The notes below the pieces were generated by a model. The model was not told where the DNA came from. It worked only from the letters and a program-made list of their open reading frames with translations, and did not search any database. This document shows, piece after piece, positions 3,320-55,559 of a stretch of DNA of 64,000 nucleotides. Position 1 is the first letter of the stretch; every line of letters begins with the position of its first letter. The translations under genes and the position numbers were made by a program. Source of the stretch: Cordilura impudica (lineage: Eukaryota; Arthropoda; Insecta; Diptera; Scathophagidae); the NCBI GenBank assembly GCA_963682025.1, contig OY821520.1, forward strand, positions 131,973,437-132,037,436. Reading direction: 5' to 3'.

Positions 3320-4495
3320 ATTAAGTAACGTGGATCTTTTGCAAGCATTTCCCCTGCAAACCGCAAGCGCTTCTTAATATTTTTTTTTAAAACATGTGGT
3401 TTTTTTTATGCAATGCATCCACGAAGTTTCGAATCTTGTAAGCGCCTTATTATTGTCCGAGTGGATATTTCTGCGTTTATTTGCTGTCCAATTTCAGTCT
3501 TTATTTCTCGCGAAGACATGAATGGATTTCTCTTACTGGACCTACAAATAGTTCTGTCTTCTGTTGGAGTGGTCTTTTGTGCCCTTTTTTATACCCTATA
3601 CCACTATGTGGTTTTGGTATAATGCCTTTGTGCTGCTGTTTGTAACAACCAAAAATATTTGACCTAGACCCATCTTTAATTATACCGATCGAATCAGAAT
3701 CACTTTCTGAGTTGATTTAACAATGTCCGTCCGTCCGTCCGTCTGTGTGTCCATGTAAACCTTGTAATCAAACTGCAGGTCGCAAATATGAATATATTTT
3801 GATGAAATTTGGTATATAAGCTTTTATCGGCCATGGGATGAACGCTATTGAAATTGGTGAGAATCGGTCCATGTTCAGACCTAGCCCCCATACGAATTAC
3901 CCCTATGAAATCGACATAAATTGCCATAAGATCCCAATTGTCATATAGATCTTACTCAAATTGGGTTTTGTATGCGTTCATTACGTCCATTAATGAGTAA
4001 TCCAAAAATGATCCCTTTGGCCCCATATAGAGCTGCTTCCCGATCTTCACTTAAATCTATTAAAAAACAAAAATATTGCACTGATTCTTCTCAGATTTTG
4101 TTTGTATATATTTTTGCAAAATACAAGAGACTTTACCAAACATGATCAGGATCGGTCCATTTTTGGACCTAGTCCCCATATGGATATAGCATCCGAGATG
4201 AACTTTTTCGTATCTGCAGCCAAAAAAATTAATAAAAATCCCACTCAAATTTGGTTTTTGCTTATTTTCTGTGTCCAGTTAGTTGGGCCTAAGAGATAGG
4301 GTCTCTGAACGCATGGTATAGGGTATCGTATAGGCGGTCTAGACCGACTGTAATTTTCTTACTTGTTTCATTTTGATAACACTGCACAATCAACTCCCTC
4401 ATTTTTGGAGTGCATGACTTGTTCTTGCCAATTTTAGAAACTAAAACGTATCAAAATTATTAGAATTTAATGTACGGGTTTTCAAATTACACTCA
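3320..4495 (-). pseudogene. Tc1-like transposase fragment, copy 2, split by T-family repeat
   Basis: Direct duplication of the N-terminal half of the preceding Tc1-like fragment: sequence from about 3322 closely repeats that from about 2948 (same GTAACGTGGATCTTTTGC start, same HTH coding region). It is interrupted between about 3590 and 4368 by a T-family repeat and resumes with the N-terminal KNKSCTPKMRELIVQ coding sequence at about 4370-4440. The shared right ends (CAAAATTATTA.AATTTAAT) show that the two pieces are one partly duplicated element. Confidence 0.75.
3590..4368 (-). repeat. T-family repeat copy T1
   Basis: Reverse-oriented copy of the T family. In family orientation the element opens with AACAAGTAAGAAAAT, then the 20-bp palindrome TAGTCGGTCTAGACCGACTA (partly degraded here at 4335-4355), then GATACCCTATACCATGCG, a non-coding body, an (ACGG)n microsatellite (here CCGT repeats at 3725-3745) and the end CCACATAGTGGTATAGGGTAT. 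Short open frames recur at the same place in different copies because the DNA is shared; I do not consider them genes. It interrupts Tc1 copy 2. Confidence 0.85.
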
Positions 4496-5115: not shown

Positions 5116-6908
5116 ACGTTTAGAGACCCTATCCCTGATGTGCAACTAACTAGATATAGAAAATAAGCATAAACTGAATTTTTTCTGCCTTCGAATATGA
5201 AAAGGTTCATATCGGCTGCTATATTTATATGGGCACTAGGTCAAAAAATGGATAAATTTGGTAAGCTCATTTAATTTTTGCAAAAAAAAAATATATATGA
5301 TAGATTTTAGTGAAGATCGGGAATGAGCTTCATATGGAGGGTATGACTAAGAATTGGTTTTTTGTTTGTACTACTGATAAGTGGATCTAATAAACATAAT
5401 CAAACGGAACGTGAGATCTATATGTCAATTTGGATATTATGACAATTTAAGTCATTTGTATGAGGACTGGATCTGAGCATGAACCGATTTTCACCGATTT
5501 CGATAGCGTCCATCCGATGGAAGCTTATAAAGGGTTATCCATTTTGCGCCTTCAAAAGTAAACGTAAATAATATCTTTTTTCATGATATTTCTTTTTTAT
5601 ACCACCACGCGAATTGTTGCAAGCATTGATTATTTTGAGGTAATTTTCGACCACTTTTTGACACATATTGGGCGGTATCTCAGCCATAACTTGACGAATG
5701 TTGGTTTTTAAGTGCTCAAGACTTAAAGGGTTATCTGCATAAGCACGGTCTTTCGCGTAGCCCCACAAAAAAAATCTAATGGTGTCAAATCGCATGATCT
5801 TGGTGGCCACTTGATATCGCCACGACGAGAAATATTCGCTCGAGCTATGTGGCACGTGGCACCGTCTTGTTGAAACCACATATTCTCCAAGTCGTATTCT
5901 TCAATAGCAGGCAAAAAAAAAACTCGGTTATCGTATGACCGTAACGCTCTGAATTGACGGCGACAGTCGTTCCATCGTCGTTTTCGAAGAAGTAAGGTCC
6001 AATCACACCTTCGGACAAAAGAGCGCACCAAACAGTGACTTTTTGTGAATGTAATGGCCTCTCTTCAATTACTTGAGGATTCTCAGAACCCCTAATACGA
6101 CAATTTTGTATTAACGTACCCACCGAGTGAGAATTGTGCTTCATCACTGAAGAAAATTTTGTTCGAAAAATCGCCGTCCACCGCCTGTTGTTCAAGCACC
6201 CGTTCCACGTATCTACGACGTTGTGAATGGTCAGCTGGTTTCAGTTGTTGTATGAGCTAGACTTTATATGGATGTAGGTGTAGATCCAAATGCAAAATGC
6301 GCCATAATGTGCCGTAAGACAGTCCTAATTCCTGAGAACGACGAGGTATCGACACATTCGGGTCTTCGGCAATACTTTCACTTACAGCAGCGACATTTTC
6401 AGCGGAACGAGCGAAACGATGATGCATAGGCCTTACAATATCTGCAACCGATCCAGTCTCTTCAAATTTCTTCACAATTTTGCAATTGCTTGCGTAGTTG
6501 GACGATTATATAAACCGTAATCTCTTATAGCACGATATGTGGCTGTGCTAGAATCACCATTTTTGTAGTAGGTTTTATTAATTTTTATGCATTGTGTGAT
6601 AGTTAAGCGATCCATTTTCGTCAATGTCAGACTTTCAGCTGAAAAGAAAAAAATTTTTTTAACAACTTAGTTTGACAGATGTCGAATTCCAGCCCTATAG
6701 TTTTGAAACCACGAAATGGATAACCCCTTACATTAAATTTCATCAAAATGTATTTCCAACCTATAGTCTGATTACAAGATTTGCATGGACACGCAGACGG
6801 ACATCGGTATTATAAAAGATTTGTCTAGGGAAAATCTTTTTGGTAGTTACAAACATCAGCACAAAGACATAATACCCTGACCATATATGTATCGGTATAG
6901 GGTAGAAA
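5116..6908 (+). repeat. T-family repeat copy T2, split by mariner M1
   Basis: Forward T-family copy lacking its first part; homology starts at GTTTAGAGACCCTATCCC (about 5116), runs to 5529, is interrupted by mariner M1, and resumes at 6729 with ATTAAATTTCATCAAAATG through the GACGGAC segment to the TATAGGGTA end near 6906. The uninterrupted sequence of T3 at about 29420-29460 shows the original reading across the insertion point. Confidence 0.85.
5530..6728 (-). mobile_element. mariner-type transposon M1 (DD41D/rosa-like), defective
   Basis: About 1.2-kb Tc1/mariner element bounded by inverted repeats AAGGGTTATCCA (left) and AGGGGTTATCCA (right, reverse strand) and flanked by TA at 5528-5529 and 6729-6730. 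The minus-strand transposase begins near 6613 (MDRLT..) with an HTH region (PTTQAIAKL, SIPRRSQELGLSYGTLWRIL), then FFSDEAQFSLGGYVN with the first catalytic Asp, WFQQDGATCH with the second, and WPPRSCDLTPLD with the third. Only about 29 residues lie between the second and third Asp because about 12 codons are missing after HIARAN; relatives M2 and M3 have about 41. Several frameshifts make it inactive. Inserted cleanly in T2. Confidence 0.92.
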
Positions 6909-8189: not shown

Positions 8190-8542
8190 CAAGCAGATTC
8201 CAGCCCACGAAATTCGAGTGCAGATTCTAGGAAATTTTATTTTTTCATTAAATAAAGACCCTAAAGTTATGCCAATCAATTATAGCCAATTCTCAAATCA
8301 ACACAAAAACTAAACTCAATTTTATTACAAACACATTAACAAATTTAATAAACATACACATAGCATTGTATAATTTAAATTCGTTTTACTCAAAATTAAA
8401 GAAAAAATTTAAAAATCTGTAAATCTGCAAAACGGGTAAAAAGAAATACCTTTCAAATAATATACGTTTGGTCAAAATCGGGAGAAAACGGTAGAACAAA
8501 ACATCGGTCACAAGAAATCGACTAGCCTGTTAATATTATAGA
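8190..8542 (-). mobile_element. Helitron-like non-autonomous element, copy A
   Basis: One of five copies in the window. On the element strand the family starts with TCTATAATATTAAYAG and ends with a hairpin-forming segment (GCACTCGAATTTCGAG) about 11 nt before GGAATCTGCTNR. A 5' TC, a 3' CTRR-like end preceded by a short hairpin, no target duplication and an A/T insertion site are the hallmarks of Helitrons; the assignment is inference from the ends of the five copies. Here the end reads CTTG, so it is imperfect. No coding capacity. Confidence 0.65.
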
Positions 8543-8784
8543 TTTTTTTTAAGACAAAATACCTTTGTTAAGAAAAAAGCTTTCTTAAAAAAATCAATTT
8601 TTGAAGAAAATTTTAAGAAAACCTACTTTTGGAATAAAATGTTCCTTTTTAAAAGAAAGTAATTTTTAAGGAAATGTACTTTTATCTTTTAAGGAAGTTT
8701 TTGAGAAAAATTATGTTTTTCATAAAATGCAAGATTTATTTTTTTAAATCAAGATTTTGAGAATAGCTGAAAGGGTAACTCTTA
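8543..8784. repeat. degenerate A/T array of CTTAAAAAAG-type words
   Basis: Loose repeats of TTTTAAGAAA and AAAGTACTTTT words, like those of the large array at 14.15-15.86 kb. Too degraded to give a clear period. Confidence 0.5.
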
Positions 8785-8883: not shown

Positions 8884-8899
8884 TTTTCATACGTTTTTC

Positions 8900-9185
8900 G
8901 GTGCGTAATTGGGAGGAAAGAAGCATATATTTCTAAAATTCATAACTGCTTTAAATTTTTAATCAGACCGGTTTCAGGCATTTCAGCCTTTATCAGTGAT
9001 TTTATTAAACATTGTAATAATTATTATGTTATAATTGATTATATGGTTTCTATATAAAATTTTTCTACTTAGGGCGGCAGTGAGATTTGAATCTGAGTCT
9101 ATGTCACATACATTCGTACTTGTACTTTTCGGTCATTCGATGTAACACACTCACGTAAAGTCAGTCCTACCAGCAGTGTGGTTAA
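8900..9185 (-). mobile_element. tRNA-Ser-like/hammerhead element, copy 1
   Basis: About 286-bp unit on the minus strand whose paralogue lies at 54137-55336. From its 5' end (9185): a region resembling a type II (Ser-like) tRNA with an A-box-like ACGTGAGTGTGTTA and a B-box-like GATTCAAATCTC (about 9083-9094), an AT-rich linker, a hammerhead-ribozyme fold (8956-9005), and the end TTAGAAATATATGCTTC. No coding sequence. The pol III head suggests a SINE; alternatively it is the long terminal segment of a Penelope-like element, which can carry hammerheads. Both copies align from end to end, so the two parts belong to one unit. Confidence 0.65.
8956..9005 (-). ncRNA. hammerhead ribozyme-like motif, copy 1
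   Basis: Minus strand reads AATCA, CTGATAA, AGGC, TGAAAT, GCCT, GAA, ACCGGT, C, TGATT. This matches the type I hammerhead order: stem I, CUGANGA box, stem II (AGGC/GCCU), GAA, very short stem III (A-U and C-G closing CG), H17 = C, and the second stem I strand (AAUCA pairs with UGAUU, 5 bp). The conserved G8 is A, so this copy is probably inactive. Confidence 0.6.
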
Positions 9186-9289: not shown

Positions 9290-9613
9290 TTAGGCCATTT
9301 ACACCATCACACTCAAGTTTTATGAAAACACCTGTTTAGAATATCAAGAAATTTTTTTTTGAAATTTTTATTTTATTTAAACTTTCTTTGTTTTTGTTTC
9401 CCTTTTTTTTAATATTACAAAAAAAAAAAAAACAACTCTGGTCCGACGAAAATGGCAAGTTTTTAGAAATGTTTCTTAAACCATCGGACTTCGAAAATGA
9501 AATCCTACAGACTGTCAATTTCATAACATAAGGTTTAACATGATACGATTTTTTTATAATTCTCGACTTTTTGACAGGTCATATTACAAAGTGTGATAGT
9601 GTAAATTGGCCTT
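9290..9613. mobile_element. MITE with TTAGGCC termini
   Basis: Inverted termini TTAGGCCATTTACACCA (9290) and, on the reverse strand, TAAGGCCAATTTACACTA (9613) enclose about 324 bp of non-coding AT-rich DNA. A similar half-end (AAGGCTCATTTACATGAT) starts near 9185. Superfamily not assigned. Confidence 0.65.
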
Positions 9614-10180
9614 AGGAATCAGTATTTATACCAAACAGCTTTTACTTTGTAGTACTATCAGAGGATACAACACTGTCCAACAAACAATCATTATTTTTGA
9701 GTTTTCAGTCAACCTCTGACCATCATCGAGTAAAAACCTGCGTTCTATTTGTGTTCTATTTGTGTAAAAACATTAACATAAAAACAATTATGCACACATT
9801 TAAATAAAAAATAAAATAACAACAACCACATATATTGCAAATTCTTTTGTGAATGCTTGATAACGATGTTGATGAAATATGTTGGCAGGTAGTCTTGCCT
9901 AAACCAAGAAAACGTAAAAAAGCGAGTCCCCAGAAATATTTTAAACAAGCGAAAAAACACCAATATCAATTTACAAGCTACATTTAACAATAACGATGGT
10001 TTGATATGTCCAAATATCAATGATGTGGATCCTAATAAGAAAGCCAACAACAACATCATTGAAAAAATATTAATATGAATAATATTGCTAGTACACCAAG
10101 TAAAGCTATGCTTGAAAACAACAATGTAAGTCATAATAGATTTATTGTTTTAGACAACAATAATGCTGAAGATGATGAAG

Positions 10181-10406
10181 CGCCCCGGTAGGTGAGTAAG
10201 TAGCGTGCTCGCCTACCATGCGGGGGTCGTGGGTTCGATTCCCACCAGAGGCTTTGGTCTGTCGCTGCAAAAAAAAAAAAAAAAAAAAAATTAACACACA
10301 ACTCTCTCTTTCCTAATTCCTATATCAATATCTTTCCTGAGATCAACACAATGCACTGCATCTGTAGGGGGCATCCCCTGAGTGTTGATTAATTAAAAAA
10401 AAAAAA
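10181..10406 (+). mobile_element. tRNA-Gly-derived SINE
   Basis: The head (10181-10253) resembles tRNA-Gly: A-box-like TAGGTGAGTAAG (10189-10200), anticodon-arm-like GCTCGCCTACCATGCGGG and a good B box GGTTCGATTCC (10232-10242). After an internal A22 run (10269-10290) a body follows and the element ends in a second A tail at 10395-10406. The 10 bp just before the head, GATGATGAAG, recur within the 16 bp after the tail, an imperfect target duplication. It sits inside the acidic stretch of LINE-2 ORF1, so it is younger than that LINE. Confidence 0.85.
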
Positions 10407-11934: not shown

Positions 11935-12482
11935 TAGATAATATTAATAGGCTAGGCGATTCCTTTTTTGCCTTTTTACAAACATATTAATGAATTTAAT
12001 AAATACACACATATTAATTGTATAATTTTATGTATATGTTAGTAGCGACTTTAATTGCAATTTACTCAAAATAAAGGAAAAATCTGCAAATCTGGTGAAT
12101 AGCTGAAAAGAAATACCTTTCAAATAATATACGTTTGGTCAAAATCGGGATAAAAAGGTAGAACAAGAACCTTTTTATCCCGATTTTGACCAAACGTATA
12201 TTATTTGAAAGGTATTTCTTTTCAGCTGTTCACCAGATTTGCAGATTTTTCCTTTATTTTGGGTAAATTGCAATTAAAGTTGCTACTAACATATACAATC
12301 AAATTATACAATTAATATGTGTGTATTTATTAAATTCATTAATATGTTTGTTAATGAGTTTCTTGAATTTCTTCATCAACAATAATAATAAACCAAAATA
12401 TTGTTGGTATGTGAATTGGCCAAGTTGAAAAATAAAGTTGCCTAGAAATTGCACTCGAATTTCGAGCGCTGGAATCTGCTGG
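11935..12482 (+). mobile_element. Helitron-like element, copy B, with central palindrome
   Basis: Has the family 5' end (GATAATATTAATAGGCTAGG, about 11935-11955) and 3' end (GCACTCGAATTTCGAGCGC, then GGAATCTGCTGG ending 12482, followed by T). In between, 11978-12159 and 12169-12351 are inverted copies of the same internal segment around the 9-nt spacer AGAACAAGA. The right arm is in normal family order; the left arm is an inverted extra copy replacing the normal TTTCTTGTGACCGATG segment. Confidence 0.75.
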
Positions 12483-32433: not shown

Positions 32434-33009
32434 CTAGCAGATTCCAGTCCCCGAAAATCGAGTGCAAATTCTAGGAAATTTTATTGATGTGTAAACATCT
32501 ATACGCGCAGGGGGGTAAATTTCTATTTCACAATACAATCACAAAAACAGCGCACATGTGAGAGTCATATCTAACGCGTAAGATGTGACCATTAAGACAA
32601 ATCGGTATGACTTATGATTGTTTGGTGAAAAAATTATTATATGAAATAACCTTTTTGTCGCTGTTTTCTGCATTTTATTTATTACCAGATGTTTACACAT
32701 CTCCCCTGTGATCGGACTCACACGATTTTTTTTTTCATTAAATAAAGACCCTAAAAGTATGCCAATCAATTAAACACATTAACAAATTTAATAAACACAC
32801 ACATAGCATTGCATAATTTTATGTATGTGTTAGTAGCAAATTTAAATGCAATTTACTCAAAACAAAGGAAAAAATATAAAAATATGTATATCTGCAAAAC
32901 GGCTAAAAAGAAATACCTTTCAAATAATATACGTTTGGTCAAAATCGGAACAAAACGGTAGAACAAAACATCGGTCACAAGAAATCGCCTACGCTATTAA
33001 TATTATAGA
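32434..33009 (-). mobile_element. Helitron-like element, copy C, with nested insert
   Basis: Ends match the family: minus-strand 5' TCTATAATATTAATAG at 33009 preceded by A, 3' GGAATCTGCTAG at 32434 followed by T. Relative to copy A about 240 bp is inserted (about 32486-32728), bounded by GATGTGTAAACATCT and its inverted copy AGATGTTTACACATC (32687-32701), then a short GC-rich tail. Its 5' end directly abuts repeat T4. Confidence 0.7.
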
Positions 33010-33716
33010 TACCACTATGTGGTCAGGGTATAACGACTTTGTGCTGATGTTTGTAACTACCAAAAATATTTGATGTAGACCCACCTTTTATTATACCGAT
33101 CGACTCGGAATCACTTTCTAAGTCGATTTAGTATTGTCCGTCCATCCTTTCGTCTGTCCGTCTGTCCGTCTGTGTGTCATTGTTAACCTTGTAATCAAAC
33201 TACAGGTCGCAAATGTGAACATATTTTGATGAAATTTAGCATAAACGCTATTGAAATTGGCGAAAATCAGTGCATTTTCAGACACAGTCCCCATTCAAAT
33301 GATACCTATGCAATCGACTTAAATTGCCATATATTATGTTTTTGTGTTTATTACACCCATTAATCATTCTTAGGTATAGCCCCCATATAAAGCTGCTTCC
33401 CGCTCATCACTTAAATCTGTCAAAAAAACGAAAATATTTATTTATTACACAGATTTTTCTTTAATTTAATTTCTACATGTTTTTGCAAAAAAATAAGTGA
33501 CCTTACCAAATATGGTCAGGATCGGTCCATTTTTCGACCTAGTCCCCATATAAATATAGCAACCGATATGAACTTTATCATATTCAAAGAAAAACAATTA
33601 ATAATAGTAGCACTAAATTTGGTTTATGCTTATTTTCTATACCCAATTAGTTGAGCCTAAGATATAGAGCCTCTCTCAACGTATTGTATAGGGAATCGTA
33701 TAGTCGGTCTAGACCA
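33010..33716 (-). repeat. T-family repeat copy T4
   Basis: Reverse-oriented family member from TACCACTATGTGGTC (33010) through CCGT/CTGTCCGT microsatellite (33137-33175) to CGGTCTAGACC at about 33705. Some internal deletions relative to T3. Confidence 0.85.
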
Positions 33717-43980: not shown

Positions 43981-44348
43981 TCTATAATATTAATTGGCAA
44001 GGTGATTTCTTGTGACCGATGTAAGTTTCACAGTTTTACACCGATTTTGACAAAAAACTTATCATTTGTAAGGTAATTCTTTTTAGCTGTTACCCAGATT
44101 TACAGATTTTCATCGTCTGGAATTTTTTTTTTTGAGTTATGATCGTTTAAAGTTGCTACTAACCCATACATACAATTATACAATGCTATGTGTGTGTTTA
44201 TTAAATTGATAATGTGTTTATGTTAATGTGTTGAGTTTGTTTTCTTCATTTAAAATTAGTTGAATTGTGAAGCATACCTTTAGGGTCTTTATTAAAAATA
44301 AAATTTCCTAGAATTTGCACTCGAATTTCCAGTGCTGGAATTTGCTTG
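43981..44348 (+). mobile_element. Helitron-like element, copy D
   Basis: 5' TCTATAATATTAATTGG at 43981, TTTCTTGTGACCGATG, family body, hairpin-forming GCACTCGAATTTCCAG and end GGAATTTGCTTG at 44348. Diverged member; inverted relative to copy E, with 373 bp of unrelated AT-rich DNA (44349-44721) between them. Confidence 0.7.
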
Positions 44349-44721: not shown

Positions 44722-45089
44722 TTAGCAGATTCCAGCGCTCGAAATTCGAGTGCAATTTCTAGGCAACTTTATTTCTCAACTTAGCCAATTCATAAACCAA
44801 CACTTTAATAGTTTATTATTATTGTGAATGAAGATAACAAATTCACTAACAAACACATTAACAAATTTAATAAACACACACATGGCATATGTATAATTTT
44901 ATAAATGTGTTAGGAGCAATTTTAAATGCAATTTTCTCAAAATAAAGGAAAAAATTTTAAAATCTGTAAATCTGGTGAACAGCTAAAAAGAAATACCTTT
45001 CAAATAATATACGTTTGGCCAAAATCGGGACAAAATGGTAGAACAAAACATCGGTCACAAGAAATCGCCTAGACTATTAATATTATAGA
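44722..45089 (-). mobile_element. Helitron-like element, copy E
   Basis: Best-preserved copy: minus strand 5' TCTATAATATTAATAG at 45089 preceded by A; 3' hairpin segment GCACTCGAATTTCGAGCGC and GGAATCTGCTAA at 44722 followed by T. These are the A/T context and CTRR end expected of a Helitron. Confidence 0.75.
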
Positions 45090-45186
45090 TGCCCAATATT
45101 TCGATCGAAATATTCGACCATTATCAAGGGCTCTATTATAAATTGTATAAAAAACACATTATAAACACATATTAGTTACAAAAATA

Positions 45187-50260: not shown

Positions 50261-50969
50261 GTCTCTACTGAAAATACAGGTGCGTTATATTGAAAGCATG
50301 GCTGCATTTCCACAAAAATGGTATTTAAGATATTACACTATAGTCTTAAGTTATCTTTTATTATTGTTGCTGTATCATTATATTGTAGAAAAAAAGACTC
50401 AATAAATTTAAGCTTTAAAACTTTAAACTTTTAAAAAAACATTTTAAAAAACAACAAAAATTCACAACATAAAATCACAATATTTACATATATTTTAAAA
50501 TAACTAATGAACCGTGATTAAACTAATCATATGAGTTGTTGTCACCTACAGTTTTGTTTTGATCTACATTGTCTCTTGTATGTCTACAAATTTGATCGCA
50601 TTTGTTATGCACTAATTACGTGTAGCATCTCTAGAGTATATCTCTTTTTATAATTGCTCTCTTTAACTAATATGTCAATATTTTCGAAACTAGGTTTATG
50701 ACCGACCAGTCAATGTACAGTGGGCTGCTAAAGCTGTTTTTTTTTGTAAAATTGGTTTGTCAGTTGCTTTTTGATCTGATTTGTGAGATGCCAGTCTGGA
50801 TTTCAGTTTCGATTTAGTCGTGCCAACATATAACTTCGGGCATATATTGGACTCGTCTCTAATTCAACTAATTTTAGAAACTAAATTACATTTATCACAA
50901 TTTTCCATTTTGGATTTGGTTTTACTAAATAGTTTTTTAAGTGTATTGTCTGTCTTAAATGCTAACACA

Positions 50970-51383
50970 ATACGAAACATGCAAGCAATGCATCTAATTT
51001 CGAAGGAGTTTTTGGAAAGAACCGTGTACTGCGAGATGACATACAGACACGAGTGGACAAGTTTCTGTATTATTTTGAAAAAATCAATGCATCCATGACG
51101 TTAAAATTACATTTCATGCAATTCCACCTTGATACCTTTTTGGCACAATTACGTCAGGAATCGGACGAACAAGGAGAGAGGTTCCATGCCAATGGAAAAG
51201 CGATTCAAAGGCAAAAAATTAGATGCATTGCTTACGGAGGTTTGTTGGTGGAGTTCTAAAATTATGCAGTTTGAAGATGACACTGAAATTGGTGGACACT
51301 CTGATGAAAACATGCCCTTGAATATTATGTCTAACTCGGATGATTATGCATGCTCAGAACATGAATATGAACAACCTACGTAG
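50970..51383 (+). pseudogene. coding relic of element Z (EQGERF protein family)
   Basis: The frame reads RVDKFLYYFEKINASMTLKL, HFMQFHLDTFLAQLRQESDE, QGERF, then shifts by one to KRFKGKKLDALLTEVCWWSS and an acidic tail (DENMPLNIMSNSDDYACSEH). The block KLHF..HLD..(S/E)DEQGERFH followed by CW recurs in transposon-associated proteins of arthropods. No catalytic residue can be assigned. It ends about 100 bp before mariner M2. Confidence 0.6.
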
Positions 51384-51484: not shown

Positions 51485-52772
51485 AAGGGTCCGCCACTAA
51501 CGTTTTTATTTTCAACAAGTGCTTATTTCGTGAATGGTAACACTTAGCTCATGTCTGATTTGACAGATAATTGGTTTTATCCTTCCGCTGAACGGACATG
51601 GTTGTGTATACGATTGAACAATGCTGGGAAATATTGCGACATTACTTTGAAAATCATGGTAATATTGCTGAATGTGCGCGAAAATTGCGTACGGATTTTG
51701 GACGAAGAGAAGCACCGTCAGCTCCGTATGTTCGTTATCTTGTGAAAAAAGTGAAAGAAACTGGCATCCTCATCGATAAACCAAAGCGTGAAAAGCCAAA
51801 AACAGTGCGTACACCCGAGAATATTGCTGCTGTGGTAGAAAGTGTGCGTGAAGCGCCATCAACATCAATTCACGTACGTTCTCAAGAATTGAACATTTCG
51901 GAGGCATCATTGAGACGAATTTTGCATAAAGACCTTGGCATGACGCCATACAAAGTCCAATTGGTTCAGGAGTTGAAGCCAATTGACCATCCAATACGTT
52001 TTCGCTTCGCTAAGTGGGCCTGCGATCGACTTACAGAAGATGCCGATTTTGCCAAAAAAAATCATCTTTTCAGATGAAGCTCATTTTGATCTTGGCGGGT
52101 ATGTAAACAAGCAAAATTGTCGCATTTGGGGCACAGAAACCCCGCACTCATACATTGAAAGCCGATACACCCAAAACGAGTAACTGTTTGGTGCGGATTT
52201 TGGTCCAGAGGCATAATTGGGCCATTTTTCTTCGAAAATGAGCAAGGAGTGGCCGTTACAGTCAATGACGATCGTTATCGGGCCATGCTGAATGAATTTT
52301 TGTTCATAAAAATTGAAGAGGAGGATATTGGCAACATTTGGTTTCAACAGAACGGCGCTACGTGCCACACAGCCGAAGTTACACTCGATGTTTTGCGCCC
52401 TGTTTTTGAAGATCGCATTATCAGCCGCAGAGTTGATGTCGTTTGGCCACCTCGGAGCTGCGATTTGACACCGTTGGACTATTATGTGTGGGGTGCCCTC
52501 AAAGATAAGTGTTACGCCAACAAGCCAGAGACAATTGACGCTTTAAGGGACAATATTCGTGAAGCCTTTGGTGAAATACAGCTGCACACAATCGAAAATG
52601 AGCCTAAAAATTGGACCGATCGTGTAGGCTACTGCATGGCCATTTGAAAGAAGCTATATTCCATTATTAACCGAAAGGATTGTACTTTCAAAAAAAAAAA
52701 AGAAATTTGAGATAATATTCAGTAGTTTTTTTTATAGCATTTTCAAAAAAAAAAGTTATTTGGCGAACCCTT
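51485..52772 (+). mobile_element. mariner-type transposon M2 (DD41D/rosa-like), defective
   Basis: 1288 bp between inverted ends AAGGGTCCGCCA and AAGGGTTCGCCA, flanked by TA (51483-51484, 52773-52774). Transposase starts at 51598 (MVVYTIEQCWEILRHYFENH): HTH pairs (NIAECARKLRTDFG, STSIHVRSQELNISEASLRR), GMTPYKVQLVQELKP, then a frameshift in the A-run at 52055, IIFSDEAHFDLGGYVN with first Asp, a second frameshift near 52170, IWFQQNGATCHTAEV where the second Asp is Asn, and WPPRSCDLTPLDYYVWG with the third. Forty-one residues separate positions two and three, the rosa-type spacing. C-terminus at 52647. Not functional, but long frames suggest modest age. Confidence 0.94.
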
Positions 52773-53195: not shown

Positions 53196-54195
53196 TCCGT
53201 ACGGTTACCGAGTTATAACTGTGTTAAAATATACAAAAAGTGATAAAAATCCACCTTGAGCAAAAAACTTTGTATGGCCAATAAATTATAATAGCAGCCA
53301 ACTTGACAAAACTAATGATGCAGAAGTTCTTATTTTTCAAGCTACTTTCAGTTGTAATTTTCAGAATTAAGTCCCAAATCAATGAGCTGAAAAATGTTAT
53401 ACTGTGTAATTCCAATTTTTCTTTATCGTAAATATTAGTATTCTTGAGTCTTTCCGATGAGCCTGGTATATACGTCATTGAATTATATACTTTCGTTGAT
53501 TTTTCTATTATTATTTTGCGTATCTTATTAAGTCGTTAATGGTTTTAACGGAAAATCCTTAATATAATACAATCTAAATAGGGTAACATGTTTTCCTTTT
53601 CAATTTCCATAGTGAATTGAATTTGTCTGTTGAAGTCGTTTTATGTTTTGAGGGTTTCGTTGATATTAGTTATTTTTGCTATTGCAGATAATATTTTTAC
53701 AATATTTTTACTATTGCAATATACATATTTTGTGAGTATTCTAGGTTTATAATTTAATTTTCTACCATCACATTAAGTAGTTCCTCTATAACTATGTCTG
53801 TAATAACCGGAGATGTTGGAGATCCCATAGGCATTCCTTTATTTTGCTCGTAGATTTTATCTCCATATTTAAAATATATATTTGCTTTTATACGAAACGT
53901 CAGTAGTTCCATAAATATATCCTGAGTTATATTCGTAAATTTTTTGATTATGTGTGACTGTGCGTGACTACCCCAAAATTGATCCGTAGTAACAGCAAGA
54001 CTATGGGCCAAGCTTCATATCAATTTGATAAGGGGGAATGGGGTTTACCCACGATAGACAGACAGACAGAACATGAGTTAAAAAAAAAGAGTTTAAGTTC
54101 TAAGCTTAAGTCATCGAAATTGATTACCATTTCAATGGTGCGTGGTAGAGCAGAAGAAAGCATATATTTCTAAAATTCAGAACTACACTTTTTTC

Positions 54196-54240
54196 TTAAT
54201 CGGACCGGTTTCTGGCATTTCCGCATTCATCTGCGATTTA
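54196..54240 (-). ncRNA. hammerhead ribozyme-like motif, copy 2
   Basis: Minus strand reads AAATCG, CAGATGA, ATGC, GGAAAT, GCCA, GAA, ACCGGT, C, CGATTAA. Stem I is AAUCG/CGAUU (5 bp); in copy 1 the pair next to the core is A-U, here G-C, a compensatory change. The core has G8 intact but U4 is A, and stem II keeps only its two G-C pairs. The two copies together imply an ancestral CTGATGA core. Confidence 0.62.
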
Positions 54241-54293
54241 TTCAACATTGTGATAATTGTTACTGTTATTGTTAATTGAATAAATTGTTTCTA

Positions 54294-55203
54294 AAGGGTG
54301 ATCCATTTCGAGGTTCCCTACCTTTTTAAAGAAAAAGCAAACACAGAAAGTTTAAATTTAATGGGTAATATTTATTATCATTTGAAAGAACATTCTTTGG
54401 CATTTATTTTTTGGAGATTATGTCTATCAAATGTTGGCCGCGGCTACGTCTCAGATGGTCCATCCGTTGAGTCCAATTTTCGATGACTCGTTCGAGCATT
54501 TCGACTGGTAACTGGCGAATGATACGCGTGATGTTTTGCTCCAAGGCCTGAATCGAAGCGGGATTGTCCGCATAAACTTTAGACTTTACATATCGCCACA
54601 GGGAAAAGTCGAACGGTGTGATATCACACGATCTTACTGGCCAATCGACCGGCCCAAAACGTGAAATTATTGACCGAAGTGTTCTCTCAATAAATCCATT
54701 GATTGTTGCGTGTGTGGGGAGTGGCGCCATCTTGTTGAAACCAAATGTCGCCGAGGTCACGAGCTTCCATATGTCAAGTCGTTCCATACGTCAGTGCGAG
54801 TTGCTGCGAACGGCGCCGAATCGACTCTCTACAGTTTTCGTATACACTCTCAGCTACGGCCGCTATATTTTCTTCACTGCGTGCTGGATGTGGTCTGTTC
54901 TGCCGCATATTATCCAATAGTGAATGCTGGGTCTCAAGATGGGTGATGGTGTTGCGAATAGTACGCTCAGTAGGCCGATTATGTTGGCCATAATTTGAGC
55001 GAAGTGCACGAAACACATTATTCACAGAACGTGAATTTTCGTAATAAAGTTGAACGATTTGTAAACGTTGTTCAGGCGTAAGTCTTTCCATGATGAAATG
55101 TCAAACAATACTAAACAGAAATAACATGACAGCATGACACGACTCACACGTGATCTGTCAAAAAAAGGCTATTGAAAAAAGTATCTCTACTTGGATCACC
55201 CGG
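54294..55203 (-). mobile_element. mariner-type transposon M3 (DD41D/rosa-like), internally deleted
   Basis: 910 bp with ends AAGGGTGATCCA and CCGGGTGATCCA (reverse), flanked by TA (54292-54293, 55204-55205). Minus strand: MERLTPEQRLQIVQLYYENS from 55091, HTH segments (RTIRNTITHLETQHSLLD, RRRSQQLALTYGTT), then a jump directly to FGFNKM/WFQQDGATPHT (second Asp, frameshifted), WPVRSCDITPFDFSLW (third) and the C-terminus RVIENWTQRMDHLRRSRGQH. About 140 residues including the first catalytic Asp are missing. A non-autonomous deletion derivative. Confidence 0.93.
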
Positions 55204-55559
55204 TATATGAAATTTTTCCCCTTAGGGCAACTACGAGGTTTGAACCTGCGACCATCTCACGTACACTAGTAACTGGACTTTTTGGTCAGCGCTTTAACAC
55301 ACTCACCAAAGTCGGGTCTACGAGCAGTTTGGTTAAGAATCAGTCCAATTTCCACTATTCTCAGTTTTGTATACATACATATGTTTTGCTATATGTGATA
55401 TGTGGTTTGTATATTGCACATATTGTACCTTTTACATATATTACAGAACATTGCTTTGACATATTTTTTTAAAAGTTGGTTAGATTTTGACGTAATTTTT
55501 CAGACATTTTGCAATTACATAATACTATAATTAATATGCAGATTTTGTTTTCTTTAGTT

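Follow-up and report, generated by a model that had tools for sequence, protein, structure and literature searches.

A large repeat family of Cordilura impudica joins a tRNA-Ser-like segment to a type I hammerhead and is probably a retrozyme-like element mobilized by Penelope machinery

A 64,000-nucleotide stretch of the genome of the fly Cordilura impudica (contig OY821520.1, positions 131,973,437 to 132,037,436; hereafter the window) holds two minus-strand copies of a repeat with 76–78% mutual identity (window against itself, blastn), each of which has A- and B-box-like sequences and then a hammerhead-like sequence. Comparison of the region 54137–55336 with the whole window returned one further copy, at 8900–9185 on the same strand. 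What kind of element places a tRNA-like part and a ribozyme side by side in this way? The preliminary description proposed a self-cleaving short interspersed element (SINE) with a polymerase III (pol III) head and a unit of about 290 bp. Its account of two copies with boxes and then a hammerhead on one strand was borne out, and the unit proved to be about 602 bp long. The tRNA-Ser-like segment and the type I hammerhead really form one linked, large family, and the unit is probably a non-autonomous retrozyme-like element with a dimer-type hammerhead that is mobilized by Penelope machinery; both window copies would then be decayed members of one non-autonomous retroelement family.

Two exact patterns were counted across the genome (1,486 Mb in 855 contigs). 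A 20-mer from the hammerhead, CTGATGAAGGCTGAAATGCC, occurs at 5,665 places (2,856 + 2,809; reversed-pattern controls 0 and 0), and a 15-mer from the head, GAGTGTGTTAAAGCG, at 4,393 places (2,230 + 2,163; reversed-pattern controls 1 and 0). These lists are free of similarity bias and contain exact matches only, and the analyses of neighbours and linkage cover the first 100 places listed, which lie on one contig. The 100 hammerhead places extend up to 25.2 Mb on contig C1, and 79 head places lie within that stretch. A head stands 125–178 nt upstream of a hammerhead on the same strand for 53 of the 100 hammerhead places and 53 of the 79 head places, and the control placements (wrong strand or wrong side) gave 0. 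An unpaired head or hammerhead place may mean only a mutated partner, because both patterns must be exact in decayed copies. Among 52 non-redundant loci and the window, 59 matches span the head, and all 58 unsplit ones continue into the hammerhead, the exception being a window copy split by a mariner-like insertion. Sixty-four matches span the hammerhead, six of which start downstream of the head; these are partial or inverted pieces, one piece cut by the locus end and the mariner-split copy. The two parts are thus linked, as the preliminary description had supposed, and do not occur independently.

When one window copy (copy A, at 8894–9185) was used as the genome query, 4,351 first-look candidates were obtained, 40 of which were scored, with 42 matches listed. 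The 30 loci that were fetched are alike to one another far beyond 290 bp, and the repeated unit is about 602 bp long, with tandem periods of 587–610 bp. A 290-bp element defined by the two window copies was therefore ruled out: that stretch is only their shared part, the genome copies extend on both sides of it and both window copies have more sequence upstream. The unit consensus, built from the 30 copy-A-query loci with a linker from loci L040 and L043, is approximate. Loci from this query and from a second one were picked by similarity to the query, which biases their counts, and the second query favours copies reaching the 602 end. From 5′ to 3′ the unit contains an upstream region, the tRNA-Ser-derived segment (265–340), the type I hammerhead (413–466, predicted cleavage after 456), a T-run and 3′ ends at about 530 or 602. 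The T-run, TTTTT at 484–488, lies 27 nt past the cleavage site and is the sole run of at least four T in the consensus. The tail sequence reads ATTAATTGCAATATGTCTGAAAAATGACGTCAAATCTAACAAA, and the 602 end is CTAACAAA. The unit has no long reading frame; the longest mechanical open reading frame (ORF) overlapping it has 78 amino acids (aa) in L040 and 52 aa in L032.

A type I hammerhead, comprising the core and stems I–III, is predicted from the family consensus, which reads AATCG-CUGAUGA-A-GGC-UGAAAU-GCC-A-GAA-ACCGGU-C-CGAUU and has a further GUUC/GAAU helix in stem I. Position names (C3 to A9, G12 to A14, A15.1-U16.1, H17) follow the usual numbering. We aligned 63 hammerheads, namely the 64 motif-spanning matches minus L001, which is window copy A; eight overlapping or duplicate loci, loci L061–L090 and shorter matches were set aside. 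The 12 core positions are intact in 49 of the 63; the core is 97.5% identical to the consensus, the stems 95.3% and the remainder 95.4%. A strict descriptor matches the family consensus; it hits none of 40 dinucleotide-shuffled windows, with both strands scanned, and 1 of 20,000 shuffled units, and it finds no hammerhead within the window itself. Both window hammerheads are broken by one core mutation each, CTGATAA (G8 to A) in copy A and CAGATGA (U4 to A) in the other copy (copy B), so that neither of the hammerhead-like sequences first noticed there is intact. Rfam gave no hammerhead or tRNA in the window at the gathering score or at E ≤ 5, and none in 20 loci at E ≤ 10. A covariance model scored the window copies at 100 bits (A) and 96 bits (B), both sequences being in the model, and beyond these two it gave only matches of at most 18 bits in the window and 30 Penelope loci.

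In 4 of 51 distinct rows the first pair of stem I is A-U in place of G-C, and the covariation score of 0.089 exceeds 500 shuffles and all slid controls; related sequences can give such a score without structure. A 56-nt piece of copy A folds better than shuffles (2 of 200 as good), whereas the longer pieces taken from the window show no such advantage (54 and 186 of 200). Stem III is the palindrome ACCGGU without a loop, and a single strand therefore cannot form it well. In a two-strand fold, the double hammerhead reaches −22.3 kcal/mol against −8.2 per single strand (−16.4 for two apart). With a palindromic stem III, cleavage is expected mostly where two units come together, and cutting would thereby be tied to RNA that is tandem or paired.

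The head was compared with four tRNA-Ser genes taken from the same genome, one tRNA-Ser(CGA) and three near-identical tRNA-Ser(GCT). The head consensus aligns to tRNA-Ser(CGA) with a score of 36, which none of 500 dinucleotide shuffles reached (z 5.3), and the alignment runs through the D-arm, the anticodon and variable arms, the T-arm and the 3′ acceptor strand; the head can thus be aligned to a tRNA beyond the boxes, as the earlier proposal required. Scores against the three tRNA-Ser(GCT) genes were 25–26 (reached by 17–24 of 500 shuffles) and against a tRNA-Gly of the window, the only non-Ser control, 20 (159 of 500). Among single copies, the head of copy B scores 33 against both tRNA-Ser kinds (0 to 2 of 500) and 17 against the tRNA-Gly (229 of 500), and the head of L057 scores 35 against tRNA-Ser(CGA) (1 of 500), while the head of copy A is not outstanding against tRNA-Ser, with 40 of 500 shuffles as good. 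Over 58 copies, identity to the consensus is 97.1% in the A-box region, 92.6% in the B-box region and 91.5% in the rest of the head; both boxes are present in the consensus, and the exact B box GGTTCRANNCC occurs in 10 copies. ARAGORN gave no tRNA for the unit in the window or in 53 loci. Rfam and ARAGORN both miss the head and were set aside as tests of it; the Rfam miss says little, because Rfam also gave no tRNA family for the ARAGORN tRNA-Gly at 10182–10253. Judged by the alignments, the head appears to be derived from a tRNA and to carry A and B boxes.

Could the unit then be a SINE in the strict sense? Insect SINEs derived from tRNAs are short and non-coding, have a tRNA-derived segment with A and B boxes and reach thousands of copies, as the unit does. 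The unit differs from them in that its head is not 5′-terminal, no tail is recognized, a ribozyme is present and tandems are formed. A tRNA-Ser-derived SINE transcribed by pol III from its internal boxes, with the hammerhead in its body and moved by the machinery of long interspersed elements (LINEs), would explain the similarity to tRNA-Ser with both boxes and the high dispersed copy number, and the single TTTTT past the cleavage site would serve as a pol III terminator, with the whole ribozyme included. A pol III SINE, however, would be expected to begin a short way before its A box. Yet the tRNA-like part is internal: the main match starts at unit 1–146 in 26 of the 30 copy-A-query loci, at least 119 nt upstream of the A box at 265, in a search whose query could not reward anything that lies upstream of the head. 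The other four loci start at 199, 227, 238 and 238, one of them being window copy A, whose upstream part resumes past an insertion. A transcript stopped at TTTTT could not make 3′ ends at 530 and 602; since the 5′ starts lie upstream of the boxes and both 3′ ends lie beyond 484–488, the copied RNA would have begun upstream of the boxes and ended past the T-run, unless pol III reads through. The locus flanks contain no common poly-A or simple-repeat tail after CTAACAAA or the other 3′ ends (L060 runs into A's), and an exact B box in just 10 of 58 copies and the head-to-head and tandem arrangement also speak against a SINE of this kind. From these features of the copies we regard a classical pol III SINE, the form in which the element was first proposed, as unlikely.

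How the copies end and how they lie to each other bears on their mode of spread. Among the 30 copy-A-query loci, 3′ ends fall at 596–602 in 13, at 526–544 in nine, at 565–582 in four and elsewhere in four; the corresponding numbers for all 52 loci are 34, nine, five and four, a sample that favours 602. The 5′ ends are variable across loci. A third 3′ end near unit 570 was considered as a reverse-transcription site and rejected: in L007 and L022 an AT-rich repeat of 340–390 bp has its edge at this point, as it also does in L025 and L030; this account does not cover L003 and L021, whose 3′ ends are near 570 too. The AT-rich repeat after unit 570 in those four loci may reflect either a site preference or amplification together with the unit. 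In the 25 Mb of C1 covered by exact places, neighbouring copies at most 1.5 kb apart form 11 direct, five head-to-head and no tail-to-tail pairs, and tandem arrays of 604–605 bp are seen. An inverted unit piece is fused at the 5′ end in 7 of the 52 loci. At C1:5015869-5019045, three hammerhead units in one direction face three in the opposite one, each 604 bp apart, forming a large head-to-head palindrome. An unusual join is perhaps present in L002, where inverted, not direct, short repeats (ATAACGGTA and TACCGTTAT) flank the unit.

The tandem periods of 587–610 bp could suggest a hammerhead satellite that multiplies chiefly through recombination or copying at the DNA level and not by reverse transcription, its likeness to tRNA being incidental; newts, schistosomes and crickets are known to have hammerhead repeats (PMC6155905). 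Such a satellite is very improbable here: the 5,665 exact places are mostly single in the 25 Mb examined, common 3′ ends go with variable 5′ ends, the tRNA alignment runs from the D-arm to the acceptor and a few target-site duplications exist. Those that look real are in L038 (11 bp), L039 (7 bp) and L050 (8 bp) and around a 120-bp partial copy in L049 (10 bp).

The arrangement of the units, direct or head-to-head, is the same pattern as that of the Penelope-like elements of this genome, which hints that Penelope machinery copies the unit. In two lists (the best 150 of 3,352 and of 3,495), Penelope-like places at most 8 kb apart form 21 direct, 17 head-to-head and no tail-to-tail pairs; one array contributes several of these pairs (six lie at C1:209.36-209.38 Mb), and a duplicated locus on contig C2, which holds L057, accounts for two of the head-to-head pairs. 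Open Penelope-like frames of 866 aa exist at L084 and L087, and among 120 listed relatives of the L084 protein, those with a named organism are from flies (among them Lucilia, Haematobia, Musca, Eurosta and Drosophila virilis) except one from a moth. The earlier guess of Penelope machinery fits the neighbour orientations of the unit copies and of these elements. For a Penelope-like element, work in vitro describes cutting and extension of both strands of the target as well as reverse transcription that begins within the RNA (PMC11167929); such behaviour could give copies of this kind.

Penelope-like elements with minimal hammerheads in pseudo-long terminal repeats (pseudo-LTRs) resemble the unit in their direct-tandem and head-to-head copies, variable 5′ truncation, internal 3′ ends and dimer-type hammerhead (PMC11167929, PMC6155905, PMC7761336). 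They differ in coding capacity: the unit contains neither reverse transcriptase nor GIY-YIG endonuclease, and tblastn places Penelope pieces in 2 of 52 unit loci (L057 and L043), beside the unit. The hammerhead of the unit also differs by eye from that of L084, a Penelope element of this genome; the L084 motif GATCCCCTGATGATGATCGGAAAATTCGGTCGAAATATTGGGTC, which the descriptor scan did not list, reads as a minimal Penelope-type hammerhead. By eye, the Penelope-like elements at L084 (2660–3186 of the reverse complement), L087, L086 and L082 carry a minimal hammerhead-like motif immediately before an ORF start that is repeated, and they have sequence ends within that ORF start, as described for other Penelope-like elements.

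The series of events that we infer begins with RNA made from single or tandem units, which would be transcribed from a promoter lying upstream, perhaps with a contribution of the tRNA-like boxes. A pair of hammerheads would then join through ACCGGU and cut the RNA. A Penelope-like protein would next take the cut, circularized or uncut RNA and start reverse transcription at the internal tail sites (530 or 602), and extension from both target strands would yield 5′-truncated, direct-tandem or head-to-head copies. A bolder version, possible though on balance doubtful, is that Penelope-like elements have a SINE-like parasite of their own, a tRNA-Ser-bearing RNA with a palindromic, dimer-forming hammerhead that would be at least partly made by pol III, paired, cut, perhaps circularized and inserted thousands of times by the Penelope protein. 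If true, this parasite would be the Penelope counterpart of the LINE–SINE pair, and a metazoan retrozyme would have a named partner.

A different relation to Penelope would make the unit the pseudo-LTR and tail of an autonomous Penelope-like element not found here, the copies being its 5′-truncated remains. The Penelope-like tandem and head-to-head arrangement would suit this, as would the Penelope remnants beside units in the window, L057 and L043; the 3′ end lies just after ATGTCTGAAAAA, which could be an ORF start, and Penelope-like tails reach into the ORF (PMC11167929). Against it, the 604–605 bp tandem arrays are too tight for an ORF to fit between units, a stop stands four codons past the ATG of the candidate ORF start in the consensus, the 30 Penelope loci lack the unit at E ≤ 0.001 save the window's own, and the hammerhead-like motif of L084 is, by eye, a different, minimal one. 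L057 might appear to be proof of such a pseudo-LTR and was rejected as one, its Penelope ORF being truncated to about aa 275. Eleven of 26 places with at least 91% identity to the L057 protein lie in open frames of 649–868 aa; as about 590 aa follow the join (by analogy with L084), these 11 frames are too long for an L057-like join. Five of 150 scored places match from the first residue of the L057 query, four belonging to the duplicated C2 locus and the fifth being C4:182662332; this last match lies in an 860-aa frame, and the first L057 residue is not specific to the join. We therefore hold a pseudo-LTR origin to be rather unlikely.

Several observations weigh against the retrozyme-like element copied by Penelope that we favour. 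We found no Penelope-like element with this unit as terminal repeat or tail; at E ≤ 0.001, L061, which is the window itself, is the only one of the 30 Penelope loci to match the unit, and a search at E ≤ 5 added 26-bp matches at E 0.004 (L067, L070, L071) and, elsewhere, weaker matches; we take these additions as chance. L057, with two units joined to the truncated Penelope ORF, counts on the same side. Hammerhead mutants left insertion in vitro unaffected and no reads ended at the cleavage site (PMC11167929), so that any role of the ribozyme in insertion is hypothetical. The 5′ ends of unit copies do not cluster at the cleavage site either, and the idea that they sit there was rejected: main matches start at 1–146 in 26 of the 30 copy-A-query loci, preceding partial units start mostly at 492–584, and just two inverted pieces begin close to the site (L009 at 459 and L052 at 462). 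L052 has an inverted copy 10 bp past its tail, a tail-to-tail join found in 1 of 52 loci and an exception to the general arrangement. As a set, target-site duplications are weak, with 8 of 33 loci scoring at least 7 against 12.7% of mismatched pairs, and some are A-runs only. For the ribozyme, two of five pair measures (pairs changed on both sides and further pair types) were equalled in 70 and 64 of 500 shuffles, stem II is unpaired at its base in 48 of 51 rows, and a single consensus strand has no folding advantage, 71 of 200 shuffles being as good. In a circular fold 58% of bases are paired, compared with 55% in shuffles; this lies below the 70% stated for published retrozymes (PMC4918200), although the energy of the fold beats shuffles (z −3.5).

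Among known systems, the metazoan non-LTR retrozymes are likewise non-coding, low in GC, dispersed as well as tandem, and equipped with a type I hammerhead (PMC7229834, PMC4918200); insects are named among the hosts of hammerhead repeats (PMC7229834), and dimeric ribozymes are described for amphibian retrozymes (PMC7229834). In contrast to their tandems of 150–450 bp, the present unit is about 602 bp long with a tandem period of 587–610 bp, outside that size range; it also bears a tRNA-Ser-like segment and Penelope-like inverted joins. The short Schistosoma Sm-alpha repeat likewise combines a tRNA part with a type I hammerhead and is given as a retrozyme (PMC4918200), its tRNA being tRNA-Gln in the text and tRNA-Glu in the legend of that source. 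It differs from the unit in its tRNA and host phylum, and in the unit the tRNA-like part is internal to a longer repeat. Schistosoma thus gives the first instance of a hammerhead combined with a tRNA-like part, and the tRNA-Ser segment adds a second. Among the titles and abstract openings listed from the hammerhead, retrozyme, Penelope and SINE literature, with few subscription papers included, none describes a fly element of this build, which leaves the statement that no fly example was known uncontradicted within that survey.

The internal tRNA-Ser segment, the large copy number and the Penelope-like arrangement are the unusual points of this family. According to a 2020 review (PMC7761336), one could count metazoan retrozymes as a new SINE family, and their repeats have no motif identifying their partner, which is described as not deducible from sequence. 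Here at least 5,665 exact copies share a Penelope arrangement signature, and this shared arrangement in one genome makes the question of the retrozyme partner testable in one species.

Both window copies are on the minus strand and are interrupted by insertions. Copy A (8894–9185) covers unit 238–531 with the tRNA-like head, the spacer, the hammerhead and a 3′ end of the short class, and has 85% identity to the unit consensus (blastn); between its upstream part (9612–9705, unit 147–241) and the rest lies an insertion of about 426 bp. This insertion has, by eye, inverted ends like those of a miniature inverted-repeat transposable element (MITE). The boxes were labelled with the accepted A- and B-box consensus sequences. 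In copy A, the A-box-like sequence TTACGTGAGTGT is at 9147–9158 and a decayed B-box-like sequence, GATTCAAATC (family consensus GGTTCAAACC), at 9084–9093; the hammerhead region (8937–9022) has the core CTGATAA (G8A), with cleavage predicted between 8966 and 8965.

Copy B extends over 54130–55555, its head and hammerhead part being split by a 910-bp Tc1/mariner-like insertion. The downstream part (54130–54293, unit 371–529) holds the hammerhead and the 3′ end; the hammerhead region (54174–54258) has the core CAGATGA (U4A), and cleavage is predicted between 54203 and 54202. The Tc1/mariner-like element (54294–55203, minus strand), named by eye, has GGGTGATCC ends with TA on both sides and a broken transposase, one frame of which contains a DUF4817 helix-turn-helix (PF16087, E 1.2e-13). 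The upstream part (55204–55344, unit 230–372) includes the tRNA-like head, with a B-box-like sequence at 55237–55246 that equals the family consensus GGTTCAAACC and an A-box-like sequence, TTTGGTGAGTGT, at 55299–55310. A piece of unit 1–123 (55344–55475, 73% identity) is fused to unit 230, the intervening part missing, and is preceded by the tail of another unit (55476–55555, unit 528–602), so that copy B is a partial direct tandem.

Downstream of copy B and in the same direction (minus strand) are two Penelope-like remnants, identified with the 866-aa L084 protein (tblastn). A 5′-truncated reverse transcriptase remnant (53557–54038, aa 447–594; RVT_1 E 1e-4, under the curated cut-off) begins at aa 447, 92 bp downstream of the copy B 3′ end, and a GIY-YIG endonuclease remnant (E 0.001, also under the curated cut-off) lies at 50608–51022 (aa 709–833). 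The nearness of the former to copy B may be chance. Between the two remnants, reading frames at 51592–52644 show a second broken Tc1/mariner-like transposase, on the plus strand and named by eye. A further Penelope-like reverse transcriptase remnant is at 2480–2808 on the plus strand (aa 540–649 of the L084 protein).

The AT-rich repeat of 340–390 bp also occurs separately in the window, at 44723–45090, 43981–44346, 12169–12480, 12025–12169, 32816–33011 and 8376–8543. Overlapping it at 12109–12219 is a near-perfect hairpin that matches the plant family MIR6440 (68.9 bits against a cut-off of 95) and is most likely a palindromic transposon end and not a microRNA. Finally, ARAGORN identified tRNA-Gly(ACC)-like sequences at 10182–10253 of the window and at 2343–2414 of L022, which perhaps represent another tRNA-derived repeat.

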